From NCBI GenBank assembly GCA_001799195.1, contig MGSU01000052.1:1-12824 (forward strand): DNA of 12,824 nucleotides, in the 5' to 3' direction. The DNA is from Deltaproteobacteria bacterium RIFOXYA12_FULL_61_11 (GTDB lineage Bacteria > Bdellovibrionota_F > JAHFAK01 > YA12-FULL-61-11). The notes beneath the pieces were generated by a model. The model made no database searches. It was given only the letters and a program-made list of their open reading frames with translations, and was not told the DNA's origin. The position numbers and the translations under genes were made by a program. Below are positions 69 to 12,509 of this stretch, piece by piece (position 1 is the stretch's first letter; each line of letters opens with the position of its first letter).

Positions 69-288
69 CTGCAACGTGGACCTCATTCGCACCTGCCCGC
101 TGATAAAAAACCACGCCAACCCGCTCGATATGTTCACGCAGTCCGGCATGGTCAAGCTGGCTCCATAACGATATGTCTACCTGATAGGGAATCGGCAATT
201 CATCCAGTCGGGCTGCCAGTTCTCCAAGGATACGAAGGTTAAGTCGATCGCCGAAAATGGACAGATCAATGTCGGAGCCGGGCCGGTA
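40..288 (-). pseudogene. MNT-domain nucleotidyltransferase, 5'-truncated remnant
   Basis: An open minus-strand frame of 82 residues begins abruptly at YRPGSDIDLSIFGD. It carries the G-S-D-x-D-L nucleotidyltransferase signature of minimal nucleotidyltransferases (MntA type). In that family, proteins of this type AMPylate the partner HEPN toxin and so act as antitoxins. The family's later region is present (ELPIPYQVDISLW, then EHIERVGVVFY). The N-terminus with the usual Y-G-S-R-A-K-G part of the active site is missing, and there is no start codon or ribosome site. The frame joins the neighbouring HEPN gene out of frame at about 286-292, so a deletion has fused the two genes. The C-terminus runs on past its usual end into the hsdM-like fragment. 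It is non-functional as it stands. Confidence 0.7.
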
Positions 289-580
289 TACGCTTTTCGA
301 TCATGTCCATCCAGGCTTCGCCATCGGTGATCAGTCCGCGCTTGAAGGCTTCGCGCACGGCGCTTCGGGAACCTACGAGCCCCTGAATTCCTTCGTATTC
401 CAGATAGTCTTTCAAGACGTTCCAGGCCAGTTCATGGGTACATTCGAATCCTTGAATGATGCCTTGTTGTTCGAGATCAGAAAGCGCGCGCTGGTGAAGG
501 AGCTGCACTGCAAGGGTGAGTTGATGCAGCGCGCGTTTGTAATTGTCAAAGCGTTGTTGCCAACGAAGGTCTTCAGGCAT
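266..580 (-). pseudogene. HEPN-type nucleotidyltransferase substrate-binding protein (HI0074-like), 3'-truncated
   Basis: The predicted 104-residue product starts MPEDLRWQQRFDNYKRAL and matches the HI0074 family: LSDLEQQGIIQGFE, ELAWNVLKDYLEYEGI, then GSRSAVREAFKRGLI and WMDMIEKR. In HEPN/MNT pairs this protein is the HEPN partner, often an RNase toxin. ATG at 580 is preferred to an upstream TTG at 604 because AGAGG lies 8 bases before it and it sits 4 bases after the hsdM stop, as in an operon. Family members continue after 'MIE-R' with an R-N-x-x-x-H segment that holds the HEPN catalytic residues. Here that segment is gone and the frame ends IPARLRH after a junction into the MNT gene at about 286-292. 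The catalytic motif is lost, so toxicity is unlikely. Confidence 0.7.
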
Positions 581-584
581 GAAT

Positions 585-1177
585 TCAACCTCTTTTATTG
601 TCAATCAATTGGTTGCGAATTTCAGCCAAGATGATGGCGCTCTCCGCATCCAGCGCGGCAATTTCGTCCATGATCTCCTGCGGGCTGCGGTGCGTGATTT
701 CCTCACCGCCGTTGGGGTTCTTCACGGACAAATCAAAGGTCTTCGGGTCGATGGCCGCCACGTCCACGCTCCAGCTCTTGGGCGAGTCGGCTTTGGTCTT
801 TTGCAGCGCGATGAACTCGGCGAGGTCGGCGTCGCTCAGCGGGTTGGTCTTGCCCAGGTTGCGGCCGGGGTCGAGTTGGTAGAACCAGACCTTGCGGGTC
901 TTCACGCCCTTCTCGAAGAAGAGCACCACGGTCTTCACGCCCGCGCCCTGGAAGGTGCCGCCGGGGCAGTCGAGCACGGTGTGGAGGTTGGTTTATCGAG
1001 GATGTGGACGTAGGTTTTACCGGTCAGCGCCGCCGCCGTGGCGCGGTCAGCCTCCAGCGCATCAAGGTATTTTAGGAACAGTAGCCAGGACGACTGTTCC
1101 GTGTAATCCAGCTCACTGGTGCAACCGGCATCCTTCCAGAGCACGTCGTCGATGTTCTTGAAGGTTTGTTCAAACAT
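585..1177 (-). pseudogene. hsdM: Type I restriction-modification methylase HsdM, large internal deletion plus frameshift
   Basis: Two pieces of an N6-adenine methylase of type I restriction systems adjoin. Residues 1-63 (MFEQTFKNIDDVLWKDAGCT through VHILDKP) run from ATG 1177 to about 989, preceded by the ribosome site TAAGGA 5 bases upstream. The C-terminal 134 residues (NLHTVLDCPGGTFQGAGVK to the stop at 585) are in a different frame and begin at 989. HsdM of this subfamily is about 500 residues, so roughly 300 are missing. That includes the AdoMet-binding motif and the N-P-P-F catalytic motif, which cannot be found here. Reading from the true start gives a short product ending in an unrelated tail. 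The gene heads a broken operon followed 4 bases later by the HEPN gene, a common placement for HEPN/MNT pairs inside hsd loci. Confidence 0.85.
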
Positions 1178-4666: not shown

Positions 4667-5533
4667 ATGAAGCGTTCACTCTTCTACGCCACCGCCCTCG
4701 GCGGTAACCTCATCCTGTTCATCGCTCTGCTGTTCGGTGCCGGTGCCTCTTGTGGAGGGACCGAAGAGGAAACCCCGGCTGAGACGCCGCCGCCTACGAC
4801 CGCTCCGGTCGAACCCACCACCCCGACAACCCCCGAAGTAAAGGCCTTCTACAACTGGAGATCCAACCCGGCCGACGGTCGGTTCTACTGCTACCAACTC
4901 GATCCGCAGACCATGCAGCCGACCGGGCAACCCCAAGAGGCGGAACTCTGCCGGGCGGTCGTCCGAACCACGTACGCATGGACAACCATCGCGGATCGTA
5001 AGGAATGTTACGAAACGACTCTGACCGGTGAGTTGATCGGTGCTGCTCCGGTTGCGGCCGAACTCTGTCCCCAAGAAGAGCCCGCTCCGGTTCCGACCGA
5101 GCCGACCGAACCCACCGAGCCCGCTGAAGAGCCGACCGAGGAACCGCTGCTCGACGAGAACGGCTATCAGTATTACCTCGACGAGAACGGCTACGCCTAC
5201 TACCTGGACCCAGAGGGTCAGGCCTACTACCTCGACGAGAACGGGTATGCCTATTACTTCGACGAACAGGGCTTTGCCTACTATCTCGACGAAGCGGGTT
5301 ACGCCTATTATCTCGATGAGAACGGCTACGCCTACTACCTCGACGAGAACGGCTACGCCTACTACGTCGACGAGCACGGCAATTACTACTACCTCTCCGA
5401 GGAGGGGTATGCGTTCTGGTACGACGATCAGGGCAACTATTACTACTACGACGAAGAAGGCCGCCCCTTCTATTACGATGAGGACGATCGCCGCTACTGG
5501 TACGATGCCGAGGGCAATCCCTTCTATTACTGA
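4667..5533 (+). CDS. Tyrosine-rich tandem-repeat putative lipoprotein
   Basis: The product has 288 residues. Residues 1-29 form a signal peptide with a hydrophobic core (NLILFIALLFGAGASC). C29 could be the lipidated cysteine, though glycine at -3 is an imperfect lipobox. A Pro/Thr/Glu linker spans 31-58. Residues 61-134 hold a duplicated module with cysteines at 75/95 and 114/134. A second Pro/Glu linker runs 136-161. Residues 162-287 are fourteen 9-residue repeats, consensus L-D-E-N-G-Y-A-Y-Y, and the protein ends in tyrosine. ATG 4667 is preceded by GGGGAG at 4654-4659; an upstream in-frame ATG at 4598 would bury the signal peptide. I know no family for the whole protein. Aromatic octamer (OCRE) and choline-binding repeats are the nearest look-alikes, with different period. 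It is probably exported and envelope-attached. It converges on the MBL gene with a 3-base gap. Confidence 0.85.
   Translation: MKRSLFYATALGGNLILFIALLFGAGASCGGTEEETPAETPPPTTAPVEPTTPTTPEVKAFYNWRSNPADGRFYCYQLDPQTMQPTGQPQEAELCRAVVRTTYAWTTIADRKECYETTLTGELIGAAPVAAELCPQEEPAPVPTEPTEPTEPAEEPTEEPLLDENGYQYYLDENGYAYYLDPEGQAYYLDENGYAYYFDEQGFAYYLDEAGYAYYLDENGYAYYLDENGYAYYVDEHGNYYYLSEEGYAFWYDDQGNYYYYDEEGRPFYYDEDDRRYWYDAEGNPFYY
4847..5068 (+). repeat. Duplicated two-cysteine module inside the lipoprotein
   Basis: Residues 61-95 and about 101-134 of the tyrosine-rich lipoprotein share one pattern: an aromatic Y-x-W start, C-Y after 9-11 residues, a T-G or P-T-G turn, and A-E-L-C at the end. Both copies have exactly CX19C (75/95 and 114/134), and the copies are offset by 39 residues. 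One disulfide per copy is the simple reading in an exported protein. DNA identity between copies is low, so the duplication is old. Confidence 0.6.
5150..5527 (+). repeat. 14 x 27-bp in-frame repeat (9-residue tyrosine-rich unit)
   Basis: Fourteen 27-base units follow one another without any gap or phase slip. The first eight are close to L-D-E-N-G-Y-A-Y-Y. Units 9-14 drift to forms such as YDDQGNYYY, YDEEGRPFY, YDEDDRRYW and YDAEGNPFY. Units 2, 4, 7 and 8 are identical in protein, and 7 and 8 nearly so in DNA, indicating recent unit expansion in the middle. I count 37 tyrosines in the last 127 residues, with acidic D/E in every unit and almost no basic residues before unit 12. The conserved D-x-N-G is typical of a tight turn. 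Confidence 0.95.
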
Positions 5534-5536
5534 TCC

Positions 5537-6406
5537 TCAGTGAGCCTCCCCCTCCCCTAAGGGCCTGTTCAAATCCTGTCCAGGGTATTTCCTTACAGTC
5601 CCTAACCACAACCACTTTCCCGGTTCTGGTACCAACACCTCGAGGTCTGGCAGTGTTTTCCGGACCACGGCAACGAACTCCTCGACCGGGTAGTCGACGC
5701 AGAACCCCGGGAAGAACCGATCGAAGTGGTGCAACACCACGGTTGCAGGGCGCACGGTCCGCAGCAGGCGCAGGAAATAGGGAACCGCATCGGAGCGGCC
5801 GGCGAAGGGCAACAGCAGGCAATCGGGCTCCAGGGCAGCAACAACGTCGGGAGCTGCTCCACCGCTGCCGGAAAAATGCAGCCTGCGCCCTCCGAGAGAG
5901 AGGAGAAAATCCGCGTTGGCTCCACGGGGGAATTGGAGGATCAACCGCAGTAACAAGGGCAGGGTTCCGCTCCGGAGGACCAGGGCCGCGGTGCGCAGAA
6001 TGAGGAGAGGATCGAAGCGCACGTGCGGAGCTGGGTGGACTTCGACCCAGGCCATCTCGCCGAGCTCGAACCTGGTCGTCCGTTCGAGCGCATGAAGACG
6101 CTCGGCTGGAAGGCCCGCGGCTGTGAGTGCGGCGCAGACTGCCGCGGGAGCCAAGACCTTGGCACTGCTCGCCTTGGCGATGAGCGCGGCGTCGTACACA
6201 TGGTCGAAATGCCCGTGCGAGAAGAGCAGGGAGCCGATGCCGGAGAGGTCCTCCAGCGTGGTCGGGAAGACCGGATGCGCGCCGGGCCAACGGGACAACA
6301 GCGGATCGAGAGCACAGGAAAGATCGCGGTAGCGCAGCAGGAAGCCCGCGGTTCCCAACCAGAGCAGACCGATCTCGTCTTGCGCAGGGATGCCGGTCGC
6401 GCTCAT
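5537..6406 (-). CDS. MBL-fold (UlaG-like) metallo-hydrolase family protein
   Basis: The 289-residue product has the metallo-beta-lactamase core. It opens with a beta-strand (LLWLGTAGFLLRY) and carries the H-x-H-x-D-H motif as SHGHFDHVYD, residues 63-71. Candidate third ligands are H124 and H128 (VHPAPH), and there is a late histidine pair at 226-227 (VLHHFDRFF). The segment that normally supplies the metal-bridging aspartate (G-D) reads HFSGSGG at 177-183 and has none, so metal content and activity may differ from relatives. No signal peptide is seen. ATG 6406 overlaps the upstream gene's stop in ATGA, so the two are almost certainly co-transcribed and translationally coupled. The frame extends further upstream, but that part is inside the upstream gene. 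The substrate is unknown. Confidence 0.8.
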   Translation of the reverse strand: MSATGIPAQDEIGLLWLGTAGFLLRYRDLSCALDPLLSRWPGAHPVFPTTLEDLSGIGSLLFSHGHFDHVYDAALIAKASSAKVLAPAAVCAALTAAGLPAERLHALERTTRFELGEMAWVEVHPAPHVRFDPLLILRTAALVLRSGTLPLLLRLILQFPRGANADFLLSLGGRRLHFSGSGGAAPDVVAALEPDCLLLPFAGRSDAVPYFLRLLRTVRPATVVLHHFDRFFPGFCVDYPVEEFVAVVRKTLPDLEVLVPEPGKWLWLGTVRKYPGQDLNRPLGEGEAH

Positions 6407-9400
6407 CGCCCCGCATCCAAACGTTCCTGCCGCCTCCTCAGGGCCTCGGCATCGCTCGTATAGCCCTGCTGGTCGAAGAACTTGGCCAGGGCCTCGACCC
6501 GGGCTCGCTCCTCGACAAGCGTCTTCTGTAAGGCCGCGAGATAGGGCTCGGCCTGGGTGATCTTTCCCTGGGCCAGCACGGCCGCGGCGAGCAGACCGAG
6601 GACCTGGAGATCGTTGGGTACCGCGGCGTGATAGCTGGCCAACCACGCCGTTGCATCCTCCCATTGGCCGCGTTTGAACGCCAAGCTCCCGCGCACCCGG
6701 TCGAGGTGTACCCCACAGGCTGCGACATGAGCAGCTTCGTCGCTGTCGACCTGAGCGGCAAACCCTGAGGCCGCAGCAAGGTCGTCGCGTTCGAGGGCGA
6801 GGTCGAGGAGTTGGCAGGTCGCAATGGGATCGGCCTTCCCGGCGAGCAGGTGTTCCGCTGTCTCGAACTCACCGAGGACCAGGGTCACGTCCACGAGCAA
6901 GTTCTTCGCCTCGACCTGCTCCGGGCGCTCGGCTACCCTTTCGAGGTAGGTCTTGGCCGTGGCATAGCGTTCGGTTCGATAGGCGTACTGTCCGATCAGA
7001 TGGCTCCAGGTCTCCTCTTCTGCCCCGGCCTTGATCAAACGATCGAGCACCATATTGAAACGATGGGTATTCCTCAGATCGGCGGACATCGAGGCCAACA
7101 ACTCGGCCAAGACCTGGGGACTCCCGGCCTGCTCGGGTGGGAGGATATCCTCGAAGGAGGCCTGGTACTGTTGGCCGAGCAGGGAGTTGGGCTCCTCGCT
7201 GACCCCTTGGTAGAACAGGGTGCTCTGCGCGAGTTCGGCATGCGCGTTGAAATCCGAATTCACCACTCCCTCCCCGACCCAAGACCTCACCTGTTCGCGG
7301 CCGAGGGCGAACTGGGCCAAGAGATCGTAGGGACGGTTGTAGGGGATGCCGGTCAGTTTGGCGAGCAGGTTCTTGTCCTCGCTCATGTGTCCCAGACGTT
7401 TGAGGTCGAGCCGCAGCGGGTGGACCGAGGCGAGCATGATCACCTGGGCATCGCCTTGTTCGGTGAACACCGCGCCGTGGGGGAAGACCGAGAAGAGCGT
7501 CCTCAGGATGCAACGCAGGACGTCGGCATCCATGTTGTAGAGGTTGAGCCACTGGGCGAACACCCCGCGCTCGGTCAGGTTGGCCTTCACGATCTCGAAG
7601 AACTCCCGGGTGAACAGGTTGGCGGCTCCGGCCAGCCAGGAGTGGGAAGGCTGCGAGACGATGAGATCGAAACGGCCCCAGGCCTTGGTGGCGAGGACGA
7701 AGCGGGCATCCTCGATCTCGACCTTCACGTTGGGGCGCTCTCGGAGATGATCGTTGCCGTTCCGGGCAATTTCGGCGGCCTCGAGGACGGCCTCCTCGAG
7801 TTCGGCTACCCTGACTTCGTCGAGACCGAGGCCGCTAAGGACGTCCACGGTGAAGCCCGCGCCATACCCGACCACGAAGGCCCGGTGCGGCGCGCGGGAG
7901 AAGGCGAAAGGAAGGAAGCCGAGCATGGCTTCGTACTTGGGCAGCTCTCCGGGTCGGTCCAAGCTGTACACGGATTCGTTGAGTCCGTTGGTCTTGAGCC
8001 GCAAGTACCTTCGGTAGTCCTGGCCGTCGGCCGGATCATGACTGAGACTCACCACGGCGTTCCGCCCTTCCTTCAGCCATACGAATTCTTCGTAGGTGCG
8101 GCTGAAATAGCGCACCACCTCCGAGAAACTCATACCGGGCGAGGTGTGTTGGAAATAGGCGGACTTGAGGATATTGGTGAAACCCGGCTCGAACAGGGCG
8201 AAGGCAACGACCGCCGCACCGAGATGGGCCGCCAACAACCAGCCTCTCCGGGCCGGGGCGAAGACGATGAGCAGCCCGAGGCCACAGAGGAGTAACCCGG
8301 CTTCGGCCAACTGCATGGTCACGCCCGAGCCCAACCAGGGGATGAGGACGATCCCCGAGAGGCAGGAGCCGAGGATGGTGCCGAACGTATTCACCGCGTA
8401 GACAGAACCCACCGCTGAGGGAGCCGACCCGACCGAGGTCGCCGCCATTCTGCTGGCCAAGGGCAAGAGGGCTCCGCTGAGGCAGGTCGGAAGGAAGAGG
8501 GTCAGCGTTGCCACCACGGACTTGATCGCGAGGAGGGGCAGCCGTTCGCCAAGGTAATAGGCCAGGACATTGGCCGCGATCGGCGCCAGATCGAGCATCA
8601 GGCTGGCCAAGATCATGGACGAGGCGATGCCCAGGAGGAGCCAGACGAAGGTCGCCTCGCGGTCGCGTATTCGATCGATCATCGGAGCAGCGAGCAGGGA
8701 ACCGAGGGCGATGCCGAACAGGACCAAGGCCAGAACCAGGCTCAACCCGAAGACGTTGGCGCCGAGGAAGATGCCCAAATACTTGGTCCAGACGACCTCG
8801 GCGATCAGCGTGGCGCAACCGACCACGCCGCACGCCAAGAGCAGGATCCGTCGCCGAATTCCGGCCAGAACCGGAACCCCGGCAACGTCCGTCTCTCCCT
8901 TCTCTTCAGGCGCCTGCACCTTCCAGAACTTGTCCAGGGTGACCGCGAGGAGGAAGATCCCGAGATTGATGGCGGCGGCCAAACGATTGGCACCCTCGAC
9001 CCCCAGGGCGGGAAGGAGCAGGAACCCGGAACCCGCGGCTCCGAGCACGGCTCCGGACGTGTTCAAGGCATACAGCAGGGCAATGGTGCGGCCCAGGCGT
9101 TGCTCGCGGGAGGCCAGGAGCTTGACCAGGATAGGCAAGGAAGCCCCCATACACGTGGTCGGGAGGATTAAAAGGGTGGCGACGACCAGGGACTTGACCA
9201 GGGTCCCTCCCAGACCGAGCGAGCTGCCGAGCGGCACCACGGCGAGCACCTGGTGGACCTCCGCGAGGAGAGGGAGGAGCCCCAGCGAGAGGGCACCGAT
9301 GAAACCTTCGAGCAAGCCGTAGACCCGCAGGGGGTGCGTGAACCGCGGGGCTAGGCGTCCGGCGAGCGCGCTGCCGAGGGCCAGCCCCGAGAAGAACACC

Positions 9401-9552
9401 GCCAGGACCATGCTCGTCGCCGCGGTGGTCGAACCAACGCCCAAGGCCAGCACCCTGATCCACAAAACCTGGAAGATCAGGCTGCTCGCTCCCGAGCAGA
9501 CGAAGAGGCCGCCGACGAATAGCGCGCGGCGCTTCAAACCGATGGGTACCAT
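6403..9552 (-). CDS. Fused MFS-like membrane protein / spermidine-synthase-like domain with TPR-like tail
   Basis: The product has 1049 residues. Residues about 8-215 and 235-465 are two related membrane halves: SLIFQVLWIRVLALGVGSTT matches TLIAEVVWTKYLGIFLGANV, each ending in S/F-G-x-A-L-G-S. A spermidine-synthase-like Rossmann domain spans about 495-735 (VVGYGAGFTVDVLSGLG, EDARFVL, DLIVSQPSHSWLAGAANLFT). The rest is helical and TPR-like (YATAKTYLERVAERPEQ, RGQWEDATAWLASYHAAVP). This fusion family is widespread; no polyamine synthesis has been shown for it. The glycine loop is G-Y-G-A-G instead of G-G-G-D-G, and the family's S-E-P-S-N-P is S-Q-P-S-H-S, so aminopropyl transfer is doubtful. 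ATG 9552 is chosen over GTG 9561 because GGAGG at 9561-9565 sits 8 bases upstream of it, and the GTG would overlap that site. It is the first gene of an operon with the MBL protein. Confidence 0.87.
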   Translation of the reverse strand: MVPIGLKRRALFVGGLFVCSGASSLIFQVLWIRVLALGVGSTTAATSMVLAVFFSGLALGSALAGRLAPRFTHPLRVYGLLEGFIGALSLGLLPLLAEVHQVLAVVPLGSSLGLGGTLVKSLVVATLLILPTTCMGASLPILVKLLASREQRLGRTIALLYALNTSGAVLGAAGSGFLLLPALGVEGANRLAAAINLGIFLLAVTLDKFWKVQAPEEKGETDVAGVPVLAGIRRRILLLACGVVGCATLIAEVVWTKYLGIFLGANVFGLSLVLALVLFGIALGSLLAAPMIDRIRDREATFVWLLLGIASSMILASLMLDLAPIAANVLAYYLGERLPLLAIKSVVATLTLFLPTCLSGALLPLASRMAATSVGSAPSAVGSVYAVNTFGTILGSCLSGIVLIPWLGSGVTMQLAEAGLLLCGLGLLIVFAPARRGWLLAAHLGAAVVAFALFEPGFTNILKSAYFQHTSPGMSFSEVVRYFSRTYEEFVWLKEGRNAVVSLSHDPADGQDYRRYLRLKTNGLNESVYSLDRPGELPKYEAMLGFLPFAFSRAPHRAFVVGYGAGFTVDVLSGLGLDEVRVAELEEAVLEAAEIARNGNDHLRERPNVKVEIEDARFVLATKAWGRFDLIVSQPSHSWLAGAANLFTREFFEIVKANLTERGVFAQWLNLYNMDADVLRCILRTLFSVFPHGAVFTEQGDAQVIMLASVHPLRLDLKRLGHMSEDKNLLAKLTGIPYNRPYDLLAQFALGREQVRSWVGEGVVNSDFNAHAELAQSTLFYQGVSEEPNSLLGQQYQASFEDILPPEQAGSPQVLAELLASMSADLRNTHRFNMVLDRLIKAGAEEETWSHLIGQYAYRTERYATAKTYLERVAERPEQVEAKNLLVDVTLVLGEFETAEHLLAGKADPIATCQLLDLALERDDLAAASGFAAQVDSDEAAHVAACGVHLDRVRGSLAFKRGQWEDATAWLASYHAAVPNDLQVLGLLAAAVLAQGKITQAEPYLAALQKTLVEERARVEALAKFFDQQGYTSDAEALRRRQERLDAGR

Positions 9553-9580
9553 GCGTTGCACCTCCCTGCACGACGCGGTC

Positions 9581-9609: not shown

Positions 9610-9744
9610 CCGTGGGGTTGTGCTCTATCCTATAACATAACGATGCCGCCCATCTTGACTGGGGATCAGATACCTGTGAGAACAATACTCGGCGTGGCTT
9701 GAGCTTTCCTGAAGCACTGCGCGGTGGCTTTGAGGGAGGATGGT

Positions 9745-11778
9745 ATGCGAACGATAGGGATGTTCTGTGGTTTGCTCGGGTTATTGGGCTCGATCACGGC
9801 CTGCGATCCCCAACTGCTCGAACAGTTGACCAAAGAGGACGAGGAAGTTGCCGAGGACACCGAGCGCTTCGCCGAGAGCGACGCCACCTCAGACAGGCGT
9901 GCCGCCGCTTTCGAGGACCTCGCCGGCCAGACCCTCTTCATGTTCAGGGCGCCGGAGGGTCTCTTGACCGATCCCCTGAACCGCTGCTCCCACTTGGTCG
10001 AGGAGGTCGAGTTCTCGGAAGACTACATGCAATGCGCTCGGCGTCTCTTCGGGACCGGTTTCTACGGTGATCTCGACCATTGCGCGGGGCTCGACCCCAG
10101 GAAGCTCGAGCCGGTCCCGGTGGTCGCAGAAGAGCACTGCACCATCGAGTGCAACCGGAGCGAGGATGCCGACCATACCTATGAGGATTGTCACAAGGTG
10201 TGCGTCAAGGCACAACCGGGGCAGGAAGCCGAAAACCAGGACCACGGTCTGCCACACTATCAATTCTGTCTCGAGGATTGCAAAAACGTATTCCCCCGAG
10301 GTCCGGAGAACGATCCTCAGGCCGGCCTCTGTTTCAAACGCTGCGAAGAGCTTCTGGCGCACGTGATCCTTCCCGCCCAGGTCGGAGGCACCTGTGAGGA
10401 ACAATGCAAAGCCTCGACCGACCCGACCCAACTCGAGATGTGCCTGCAACGCTGTCACACCGAGGGAGTACCCCCTACCCCAGCGCTGCCCTGGCAAGAG
10501 GAATGCGTGAGGCAATGCAAGACCGAGTATGCCACGGATACCGATCCGGCGAATGTCGAGAGATGCTTGGCCAGTTGCGGAGCTGCGGCACCGACGAACA
10601 ACCTCGCCCCGCTCGATCAATGTCGTTTCGAGTGTAAGGAGAAGTTGGCCCACAGCAACGACCCCCTGGAGGTCGAACGCTGCTTGGCTTCTTGTTCCGA
10701 CAATACCAGCAACCTCCCCCCCCCAATACCCGCTCCTGCCTCGTGCACCGAACGCTGCAAGCAGGAGAACGGCAACGACGTAGACCCGGCGCGCCTCGAG
10801 ACTTGCCTGGGAACCTGCACCGCGACCTCTCCGGAGCCCCAGCAAGTAGGCAGCCCCGGCGAGGATTGCGCAGCGAGCTGTAGCATCGAGTTCAAGGACC
10901 AGGGAAAAGCGGCTCTTGAACAGTGCCGCCAGACCCGCTGCACTCCCGCCGCCGGCCCCGCGAACGAAGATCCCTGCCTCGTGCGCTGCCACGAGAAGAA
11001 GCTGGAAGGAGGAGACGGGTACGAGGCCTGCCTCCGCGAATGCTTACCAACGCCTGAACCACTCGTGGTCGACAACCTCGACAACCTCTGTCCCCAACAA
11101 TGCGGCCAGGAGGCCGGCACGAACGAGGAAGGGAAGGTGCTGGAATGCTTACGACACTGTCCCGGTTTTCTCCCCCCCGCCGAGGAACAGTGCAAAATGG
11201 GATGCTCGATCCTGTCCGACTCCGAGGCCTTGGACCGTTGCTATCAGCAGTGCGCCGGCAACGCCGCGCCGGCCCTGGAATGTGAGCTCCGCTGCGCCGA
11301 GACCGATGCTGACCCCGAGCGATTCGCCGCCTGCCGGAGGGAGTGCAGCGGTCCTGCCGATCGTGGGGTCTATTGTGAGCTGAGCTGCCGCCAGGCCCTG
11401 CTCGACGATAGACCTATCGTGCACCAACAATGCACCGAGCTCTGCCTGCGAGGAGAAATCCTGACCACCGAGGCCGAGGACATCGATGTCAACCTCCGCC
11501 AGCACAAGGAATGCCTCCTCTCGTGCGAGAAACAGAACGAGGACGAAAACTGGGTCGCGGATGAGCTGCGCCTGTGTCTGAAGCGCTGCGGGGTCGAGAA
11601 TCTCTCCTTCGCCAACTCGGAGATTCCTGAGACCCGACGCGAAGAGGTCTTCCAGGGGTGCCTCAAAGGCGTGTTGCTGCTCATGCAGGTCTGCGGGGAG
11701 TACGCTCCGCGTATCGACGAGAATCCCGAACTGTCGCAATGCTTGAACGTGCAGTACGGTAGCGTCAGAGCCCCCTGA
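9745..11778 (+). CDS. Cysteine-rich lipoprotein with 13 tandem twin-CX3C units
   Basis: The product has 677 residues. Residues 1-20 are a signal peptide ending in a perfect lipobox (I-T-A-C, C20). Aspartate follows at +2, which in enterobacteria favours inner-membrane retention. An acidic segment (21-60) and a region with C81, C97 and C113 come next. Residues 132-615 hold thirteen units of CX3C-X11-16-CX3C (unit 7 ends in CX4C), 52 cysteines in all. The tail has C639, C650 and C666. Conserved loop words such as D-x-D-P-x-x-[VL]-E precede the second CX3C. The spacing suits a helical hairpin closed by two disulfides, as in mitochondrial small Tim proteins; homology is not implied. ATG 9745 has GGAGG at 9735-9739, better than GTG 9724. 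Function unknown: binding, scaffold or redox roles are all possible. Confidence 0.9.
   Translation: MRTIGMFCGLLGLLGSITACDPQLLEQLTKEDEEVAEDTERFAESDATSDRRAAAFEDLAGQTLFMFRAPEGLLTDPLNRCSHLVEEVEFSEDYMQCARRLFGTGFYGDLDHCAGLDPRKLEPVPVVAEEHCTIECNRSEDADHTYEDCHKVCVKAQPGQEAENQDHGLPHYQFCLEDCKNVFPRGPENDPQAGLCFKRCEELLAHVILPAQVGGTCEEQCKASTDPTQLEMCLQRCHTEGVPPTPALPWQEECVRQCKTEYATDTDPANVERCLASCGAAAPTNNLAPLDQCRFECKEKLAHSNDPLEVERCLASCSDNTSNLPPPIPAPASCTERCKQENGNDVDPARLETCLGTCTATSPEPQQVGSPGEDCAASCSIEFKDQGKAALEQCRQTRCTPAAGPANEDPCLVRCHEKKLEGGDGYEACLRECLPTPEPLVVDNLDNLCPQQCGQEAGTNEEGKVLECLRHCPGFLPPAEEQCKMGCSILSDSEALDRCYQQCAGNAAPALECELRCAETDADPERFAACRRECSGPADRGVYCELSCRQALLDDRPIVHQQCTELCLRGEILTTEAEDIDVNLRQHKECLLSCEKQNEDENWVADELRLCLKRCGVENLSFANSEIPETRREEVFQGCLKGVLLLMQVCGEYAPRIDENPELSQCLNVQYGSVRAP
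10138..11589 (+). repeat. 13-unit twin-CX3C protein repeat
   Basis: First cysteines of the paired CX3C motifs are at residues 132/149, 175/196, 217/233, 254/274, 293/313, 334/354, 375/394, 411/429, 449/468, 483/499, 513/530, 544/563 and 590/611. The inner spacers are 12, 16, 11, 15, 15, 15, 14, 13, 14, 11, 12, 14 and 16 residues. Unit-to-unit pitch varies from 30 to 46. Units 4 to 6 are the most alike (VERCLASC, VERCLASC, LETCLGTC). The others share little beyond the cysteines, so most of the array is old. Confidence 0.93.
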
Positions 11779-12017: not shown

Positions 12018-12509
12018 ATGGTACTGAAAACTGGTCTTATGACGATGTGGATAGCAACTCTACTTGTGTCGGCCCACGCTCAAAATATTTTCGTAGGCGA
12101 ATGCCGATCTTCGCTGACCTTTTTACAGGATTTTTCCATACGGATGACCCATGGCGTGACAGAGATCGATACCGAGCTCACCATGTTCAATCTGCAACAC
12201 CAGGATGGACGTTCTTTTGTGTGGATATTCATGGCGCGGCCGGAACAACCCGGGCTGCTCTACGGTTTGGCTTCCTTTTCACGTCTTTTACATGATGCCA
12301 TGGCAGATTTCTCCACCATCGCACCTCACGCTCCGCGGGAGACGACCATCGGGACCGGTGAGTTCCATCGCGAGGACTCCATCATGGCCCAAGCAGATGC
12401 CCCCTTCATGTATTATGACCTGACCTTGACCCATGCCAGGGTTCTCAAAAAACTGGGCAGAGACAACCAACAAACCAGATTCACCTGCACGGTCAATGAA
12501 ATGGAGTAA
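12018..12509 (+). CDS. Small secreted protein, unknown family
   Basis: The product has 163 residues. A Sec signal peptide spans residues 1-21, ending S-A-H-A before Q22-N23, a good signal-peptidase I site. The mature part has only two cysteines, C29 and C157, placed near its two ends and plausibly paired. A beta-strand-like core (VTEIDTELTMFNLQ, RSFVWIFMARPEQPG) and a Y-Y-D-L-T-L-T stretch are visible, but I recognise no domain. ATG 12018 has GAGGAG at 12003-12008, 9 bases upstream. The 239-base gap before it is AT-rich around 11818-11865 (including TATAAA at 11856-11861 without a good -35) and holds no other gene. Codon use is less GC-biased than the upstream lipoprotein, hinting at a different origin. 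It is likely periplasmic or extracellular. Confidence 0.75.
   Translation: MVLKTGLMTMWIATLLVSAHAQNIFVGECRSSLTFLQDFSIRMTHGVTEIDTELTMFNLQHQDGRSFVWIFMARPEQPGLLYGLASFSRLLHDAMADFSTIAPHAPRETTIGTGEFHREDSIMAQADAPFMYYDLTLTHARVLKKLGRDNQQTRFTCTVNEME

Follow-up and report, generated by a model that had tools for sequence, protein, structure and literature searches.

Several groups of proteins share a helical hairpin with two paired cysteine motifs. The α-hairpinins carry a CX3C-Xn-CX3C motif and fold as a helix-loop-helix that is closed by C1-C4 and C2-C3 disulfides, and some of them, namely VhTI and BWI-2c, are trypsin inhibitors that act through an Arg residue in the loop (PMC7191063). A C1X3C2-Xn-C3X3C4 arrangement with C1-C4 and C2-C3 disulfides and a two-helix fold is likewise reported for the scorpion κ-hefutoxins and the 14-type toxins of cone snails (PMC7191063). 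In plants, modular α-hairpinin precursors start with a signal peptide, continue with a cassette in which as many as 12 units stand in tandem, and have a C-terminal region; paralogous precursors vary by whole modules (PMC11591084). The small Tims of mitochondria chaperone hydrophobic clients and are assembled as hexameric chaperones (PMC3759932). Here we describe a bacterial gene for a protein with 13 tandem units of this kind, located in a window of 12,824 nucleotides (the whole stretch of DNA that was analysed), and its longer paralogue in the same genome.

Gene layout and cysteine units

The initial annotation had presented the product of the gene as a lipoprotein. This agrees with its signal peptide and lipobox (MRTIGMFCGLLGLLGSITA-C20, by inspection), which is identical in the paralogue, and the protein is probably exported and lipidated. 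From the anchor onwards, about 40 acidic residues are followed by an N-terminal cap, the 13 units and a C-terminal cap. The 677 amino acids include 60 Cys residues: one in the signal peptide, one in the lipobox, three in the N-terminal region, 52 in pairs and three in the C-terminal region. The mature part thus contains 59 Cys in 658 residues. The net charge of the protein is about -62, the unit cores themselves being neutral to acidic (net -4 to +1), and the His counts of the two copies are low (14 and 9).

The initial annotation had also counted 13 twin units with a single CX4C exception and loops of 11-16 residues, and these counts were confirmed. Of the 26 close Cys pairs, 25 are CX3C and one is CX4C (C394-C399, in the second half of unit 7). 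Taken two by two they form 13 units, 12 of which have the exact C1X3C2-Xn-C3X3C4 motif, with intra-unit loops of 11-16 residues and linkers of 9-22 residues, mostly containing Pro, between the units. The exception in unit 7 is not a sequencing slip, because the paralogue keeps it (CRSTKC). The cysteine pattern is far above chance expectation: in 5000 composition-preserving shuffles of the protein the number of CX3C motifs was on average 3.9 and at most 12, compared to 25 in the real protein, and the number of twin motifs was on average 0.08 and at most 3, compared to 21. In the following list of features, all on the + strand of the window, the units were placed from the sequence and the comparison with the paralogue, and the helix-loop-helix of units 4 and 5 is that of a two-unit structural model.

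9733-9739: Shine-Dalgarno-like AGGGAGG, 5 nt ahead of the ATG (read in the sequence)
9745-11778: ORF of 677 amino acids, from the ATG at 9745 to the end of the stop codon at 11778, for the putative poly-hairpin lipoprotein; paralogue 62% identical, dN/dS approximately 0.13
9745-9801: predicted signal peptide, residues 1-19, closing in the lipobox SITA; SSITAC-DPQ also in the paralogue
9802-9804: lipobox Cys20 with Asp at +2 (sequence; kept in the paralogue)
9925-10119: N-terminal cap, residues 61-125, with Cys81, Cys97 and Cys113; best conserved region, 80% identity between the two copies
10138-10203: unit 1 core, CX3C-X12-CX3C
10267-10344: unit 2 core, loop of 16
10393-10455: unit 3 core, loop of 11
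10504-10578: unit 4 core, loop of 15; modelled helix-loop-helix
10621-10695: unit 5 core, loop of 15; modelled helix-loop-helix; resembles paralogue unit 5, then 6
10744-10818: unit 6 core, loop of 15; counterpart is paralogue unit 7
10867-10941: unit 7 core, second pair CX4C; counterpart is paralogue unit 11, also with CX4C
10975-11043: unit 8 core, loop of 13
11089-11160: unit 9 core, loop of 14
11191-11253: unit 10 core, loop of 11
11281-11346: unit 11 core, loop of 12
11374-11445: unit 12 core, loop of 14
11512-11589: unit 13 core, loop of 16
11602-11775: C-terminal cap, residues 620-677, with Cys639, Cys650 and Cys666 (sequence and paralogue comparison)

The surroundings of the gene were also read. 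Divergent from it lies a gene for a 1052-residue protein in which an MFS-like membrane part is fused to a spermidine-synthase-like domain and to TPR repeats (window 6403-9561, - strand), and directly downstream is a 163-residue ORF with a signal-peptide-like start and no Pfam match (12018-12509, + strand). Further downstream, murB-like, lgt-like (prolipoprotein diacylglyceryl transferase) and 6-phosphofructokinase-like genes were recognised by reading (L006:12692-15764, - strand), the murB-like gene having a short internal stretch masked with N. At the other end of the window, within 266-1177 (- strand), a gene for a HEPN-like nucleotidyltransferase substrate-binding protein adjoins an HsdM gene that is apparently in pieces, with the N-terminal HsdM domain at 935-1177. 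A second repeat lipoprotein appears to be encoded at 4667-5533 (+ strand). It has a signal peptide, a lipobox-like Cys, a Pro/Thr/Glu-rich stretch and six more Cys residues, after which come Tyr-rich repeats of the YYLDENGYA type, about 14 in number (DNA periodicity of 27 bp and 81 bp), and it had no match above the cut-off in Pfam or NCBIfam. Its Tyr-rich repeat is reminiscent of the OCRE octamer repeats of eukaryotes.

A paralogue with 17 unit positions

The host genome is a MAG of 4.64 Mb in 342 contigs that is about 87% complete. It contains one further gene of this type:

L005:2544-5087, contig C194 of the host genome (G000), - strand: paralogue with 17 unit positions, 62% identical to the 13-unit protein, 847 amino acids in the longest reading

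The paralogue is adjoined by an IS200-like transposase gene and also has a gene for a Sel1-repeat protein nearby, neighbours that are unlike those of the 13-unit gene. The two copies are therefore not one locus assembled twice. For the same reason, the neighbouring genes give no functional logic.

All 13 units have counterparts in the paralogue, in which units 6, 8, 9 and 10 are extra, so that the two copies differ in unit number while staying in register (13 versus 17 positions). Outside the Cys residues, matching units of the two copies are 54% identical, whereas different units of one protein are only 15% identical, which places the divergence of the units ahead of the gene duplication. Unit 5 resembles a join of paralogue units 5 and 6: over the first half, 78% of its bases agree with paralogue unit 5 and 39% with unit 6, and over the second half, 71% agree with unit 6 and 60% with unit 5, the latter difference being small. 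Such a mosaic would be expected if recombination between units had added or removed one unit.

All 59 mature Cys residues of the 13-unit protein are kept in the paralogue, compared to 58% identity at the other positions, and at 26 of these 59 Cys positions the two copies use different synonymous codons. By the NG86 method, dN between the two copies is 0.29 and dS is 2.25, giving a dN/dS of about 0.13 that is approximate since dS is near saturation. Judged from the complete retention of the mature Cys residues, the synonymous codon differences and the low dN/dS, the cysteine framework is a maintained, selected feature of both copies. Without the lipid-bearing Cys, the mature proteins have 58 (13-unit protein) and 74 (paralogue) Cys residues. 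Both numbers are even, and in the paralogue the lack of a fourth Cys in unit 10 is balanced by one extra Cys after unit 8.

The statement in the initial annotation that the layout belongs to no named family held, as the 13-unit protein matched no family in Pfam and no model in NCBIfam at E≤10. In total, about 590 sampled genomes were searched. Neither the two-unit nor the full profile detected a relative in one further genome of the phylum or in 385 additional sampled genomes, and none was present among the genomes searched from the phyla of G029 (195 genomes), G017 (10) and G057 (one). Two scans of GTDB genome contigs, which required exact short peptides and would miss distant relatives, gave no confirmed relative, and the same was true for the viral contigs, phages and plasmids searched. 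PHROGs contained nothing for the 13-unit protein, and two PHROGs matches of the paralogue (E≥0.18) were judged meaningless. We also dropped weak full-profile matches in four genomes (E 0.004-0.08), which lacked a CX3C array, and a weak match within the host genome (contig C246) to a TPR-like protein. No tandem CX3C lipoprotein of bacteria came up in a search of the literature. Within the genomes, GTDB contigs and viral, phage and plasmid sets searched, the two proteins are orphans. They constitute a family with two known members, both in one genome, that is real, selected and unusual, and that is a variant of a known structural kind.

Predicted fold and basis of the likeness

The initial annotation had assumed that each unit is a helix-loop-helix. 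Structure prediction agreed with this for a two-unit model, whereas the full-length model was poor. The full-length AlphaFold model, made from a two-sequence alignment, had a mean pLDDT of 40.7, with values below 50 for the caps, unit 1 and units 10-13. Units 4-8 displayed paired helices already in this model, which was otherwise set aside as too poor for use. For a second AlphaFold model, of units 4-5, the repeats served as their own alignment (27 two-unit windows). This model reached a pLDDT of 79 and contains helices at residues 3-14, 21-30, 42-53 and 60-72, each 10-13 residues long, with an unstructured linker below 50. In this model the hairpin is located inside each CX3C-loop-CX3C unit and not across the linkers.

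A Foldseek search with the two-unit model gave no match at E≤0.001. VIA-align placed the walnut Jug r 2 vicilin hairpinin on model residues 1-40 (37 aligned residues, 2.4 Å) with a weak Z of 2.7, an alignment that is suggestive only. The rows ranked above this hairpinin, CsoR-type regulators and designed bundles, were rejected as common helix packing (Z<5, rmsd 6-8 Å).

At the sequence level, a profile of the two-unit windows matched vicilin hairpinins, EcAMP1, VhTI, BWI-2c and Tim9 among PDB sequences at E 0.004-0.3. As controls, the PDB sequences were searched again with two profiles in which the non-Cys residues had been shuffled within rows while the Cys columns stayed fixed. The first control matched Tim9, Tim10 and a vicilin-buried peptide (E 0.095-0.4), and the second matched vicilin hairpinins, hairpinin-like peptides and a Tim-domain protein (E 0.014-0.36). 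For the hairpinin group, E was 0.004-0.3 with the real profile versus 0.014-0.13 with the Cys-fixed shuffled ones, and for Tim9 it was 0.06 versus 0.095. Since the shuffled profiles match the same families, the likeness rests on Cys spacing and composition. No homology to hairpinins beyond the Cys residues rose above the Cys-fixed shuffled control, and likeness to the small Tims (zf-Tim10_DDP) neither gave a Pfam match at E≤10 nor exceeded the Cys-spacing control. Convergence, already preferred over homology in the initial annotation, therefore appears to be the simpler reading, and descent from hairpinins or Tims is without support.

Lastly, candidate enzymes for disulfide formation are encoded in the host genome. 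One ORF of 463 amino acids on contig C338 matches both VKOR and DsbA:

G000:C338:12107-13228, - strand: VKOR-DsbA fusion

A second pair of VKOR and DsbA matches lies side by side on contig C133, two more DsbA homologues are encoded in the genome, and VKOR and DsbA were also found in the other genome of the phylum. The presence of these enzymes makes disulfide formation in the envelope plausible. The pattern within each unit, C1-C4 and C2-C3, is a prediction.

Possible roles and comparison with known systems

As possible roles, the initial annotation had named a metal- or peptide-binding scaffold and a stalk. We propose that the gene encodes a lipid-anchored envelope protein of 13 disulfide-locked beads of the α-hairpinin type that acts as an acidic spacer or binding scaffold, a proposal to which we give about an even chance. 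Each bead would consist of two short antiparallel helices with one CX3C pair on one face of each, and would be closed by the predicted C1-C4 and C2-C3 disulfides, made by the VKOR/DsbA system. Pro-containing linkers would separate the beads, with a Cys-containing cap at either end. The resulting array would be a compact, protease-resistant and strongly acidic spacer or binding scaffold that is held at the membrane, and its length would change through the gain or loss of whole beads. It should be noted that we infer both this role and the bead-on-string shape. The best conserved part of the protein is the membrane-proximal cap and not the distal one, and this conservation peak does not single out a display stalk. 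The position-specific unit sequences (54% versus 15%) suggest that the units are more than interchangeable spacers.

This last property also fits an adhesin or receptor array, in which individually conserved bead surfaces would bind partners either on other cells or on the envelope of the same cell, as does the multi-bead, surface-compatible build. However, no ligand or partner gene is in evidence, and the Asp at +2 in both copies would specify inner-membrane retention by the E. coli rule, which may not hold in this phylum. We consider such an array unlikely, although it survives best among the alternatives. Somewhat less probable is a periplasmic metallothionein-like metal sponge or scavenger with reduced, metal-binding Cys residues. 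The high Cys content of the mature protein would suit this function, and the weak Foldseek and VIA-align rows for the two-unit model include metal-sensing CsoR-type regulators, at scores no better than background. Several features argue against it: the twin CX3C spacing is strict and the units are predicted to be helical, the genome also encodes a VKOR-DsbA oxidising system, both copies have an even number of Cys residues, and His is scarce. A still more doubtful option is a multi-headed protease inhibitor, by analogy with the loop Arg of VhTI and BWI-2c (PMC7191063), or a chaperone of the periplasm with helices that bind clients, by analogy with the small Tims and their hydrophobic clients (PMC3759932): the loops of 30 aligned units have no conserved basic residue, and, unlike Tims, the units have neither long hydrophobic helix arms nor a hexamer assembly. 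Least probable of all is a polyprotein precursor from which beads are cut free as bioactive peptides (antimicrobial, inhibitory or toxin-like), since the plant-like order of signal peptide, CX3C-Xn-CX3C cassette and C-terminal region (PMC11591084) and the varying module number of the paralogues (13 versus 17) are set against a lipid anchor instead of secretion, neutral to acidic unit cores, Pro/Glu-rich linkers with no recurrent basic cleavage motif seen by inspection, and the absence of a homology signal beyond Cys spacing.

The disulfide-locked spacer or scaffold can be placed in a wider view, which we hold to be evenly balanced between right and wrong. The two proteins would be independently evolved poly-α-hairpinin lipoproteins, oxidised by a VKOR-DsbA relay, in which the gain and loss of whole disulfide-locked beads tunes envelope length or valency; the twin-CX3C hairpin would then have originated a third time, and its arrays here would be the longest known. 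If this is true, the twin-CX3C helical hairpin of mitochondria, plant seeds and venoms arose in bacteria too, and the bacterial arrays exceed the described plant precursors, with their up to 12 units, in length. The proteins would then also offer a natural modular bead-on-string design of selectable length and, with about 29 disulfides per chain, a heavy test substrate for the VKOR-DsbA pathway in a barely sampled phylum.

The initial annotation had chosen the small Tims (Tim8/9/10/13) as the best comparison. Indeed, twin CX3C motifs, a similar loop length and a helix-loop-helix are shared with them. However, Tims have one unit per chain, long helical arms and a place as single-unit subunits in hexamers, whereas the bacterial protein carries many units per chain, with short helices (10-13 residues) and only 9-22 residues between units. 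One unit per chain, as remarked in the initial annotation, is true of Tims but not of plant hairpinin precursors, which carry up to 12. The κ-hefutoxins and 14-type toxins, likened here by description, share the C1X3C2-Xn-C3X3C4 pattern and are single short animal venom peptides. The modular α-hairpinin precursors, from which plants derive defence peptides, are closer in layout than the small Tims: the plant α-hairpinins (MBP-1, EcAMP1, Tk-AMP-X, VhTI, BWI-2c and the vicilin-buried peptides) have the same CX3C-Xn-CX3C motif in a two-helix hairpin such as that predicted here, and their precursors likewise combine a signal peptide with tandem units joined by linkers and vary between paralogues by whole units. 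Unlike the plant hairpinins, the bacterial proteins have a lipid anchor, two end caps, 13 or 17 unit positions and a strong acidity.
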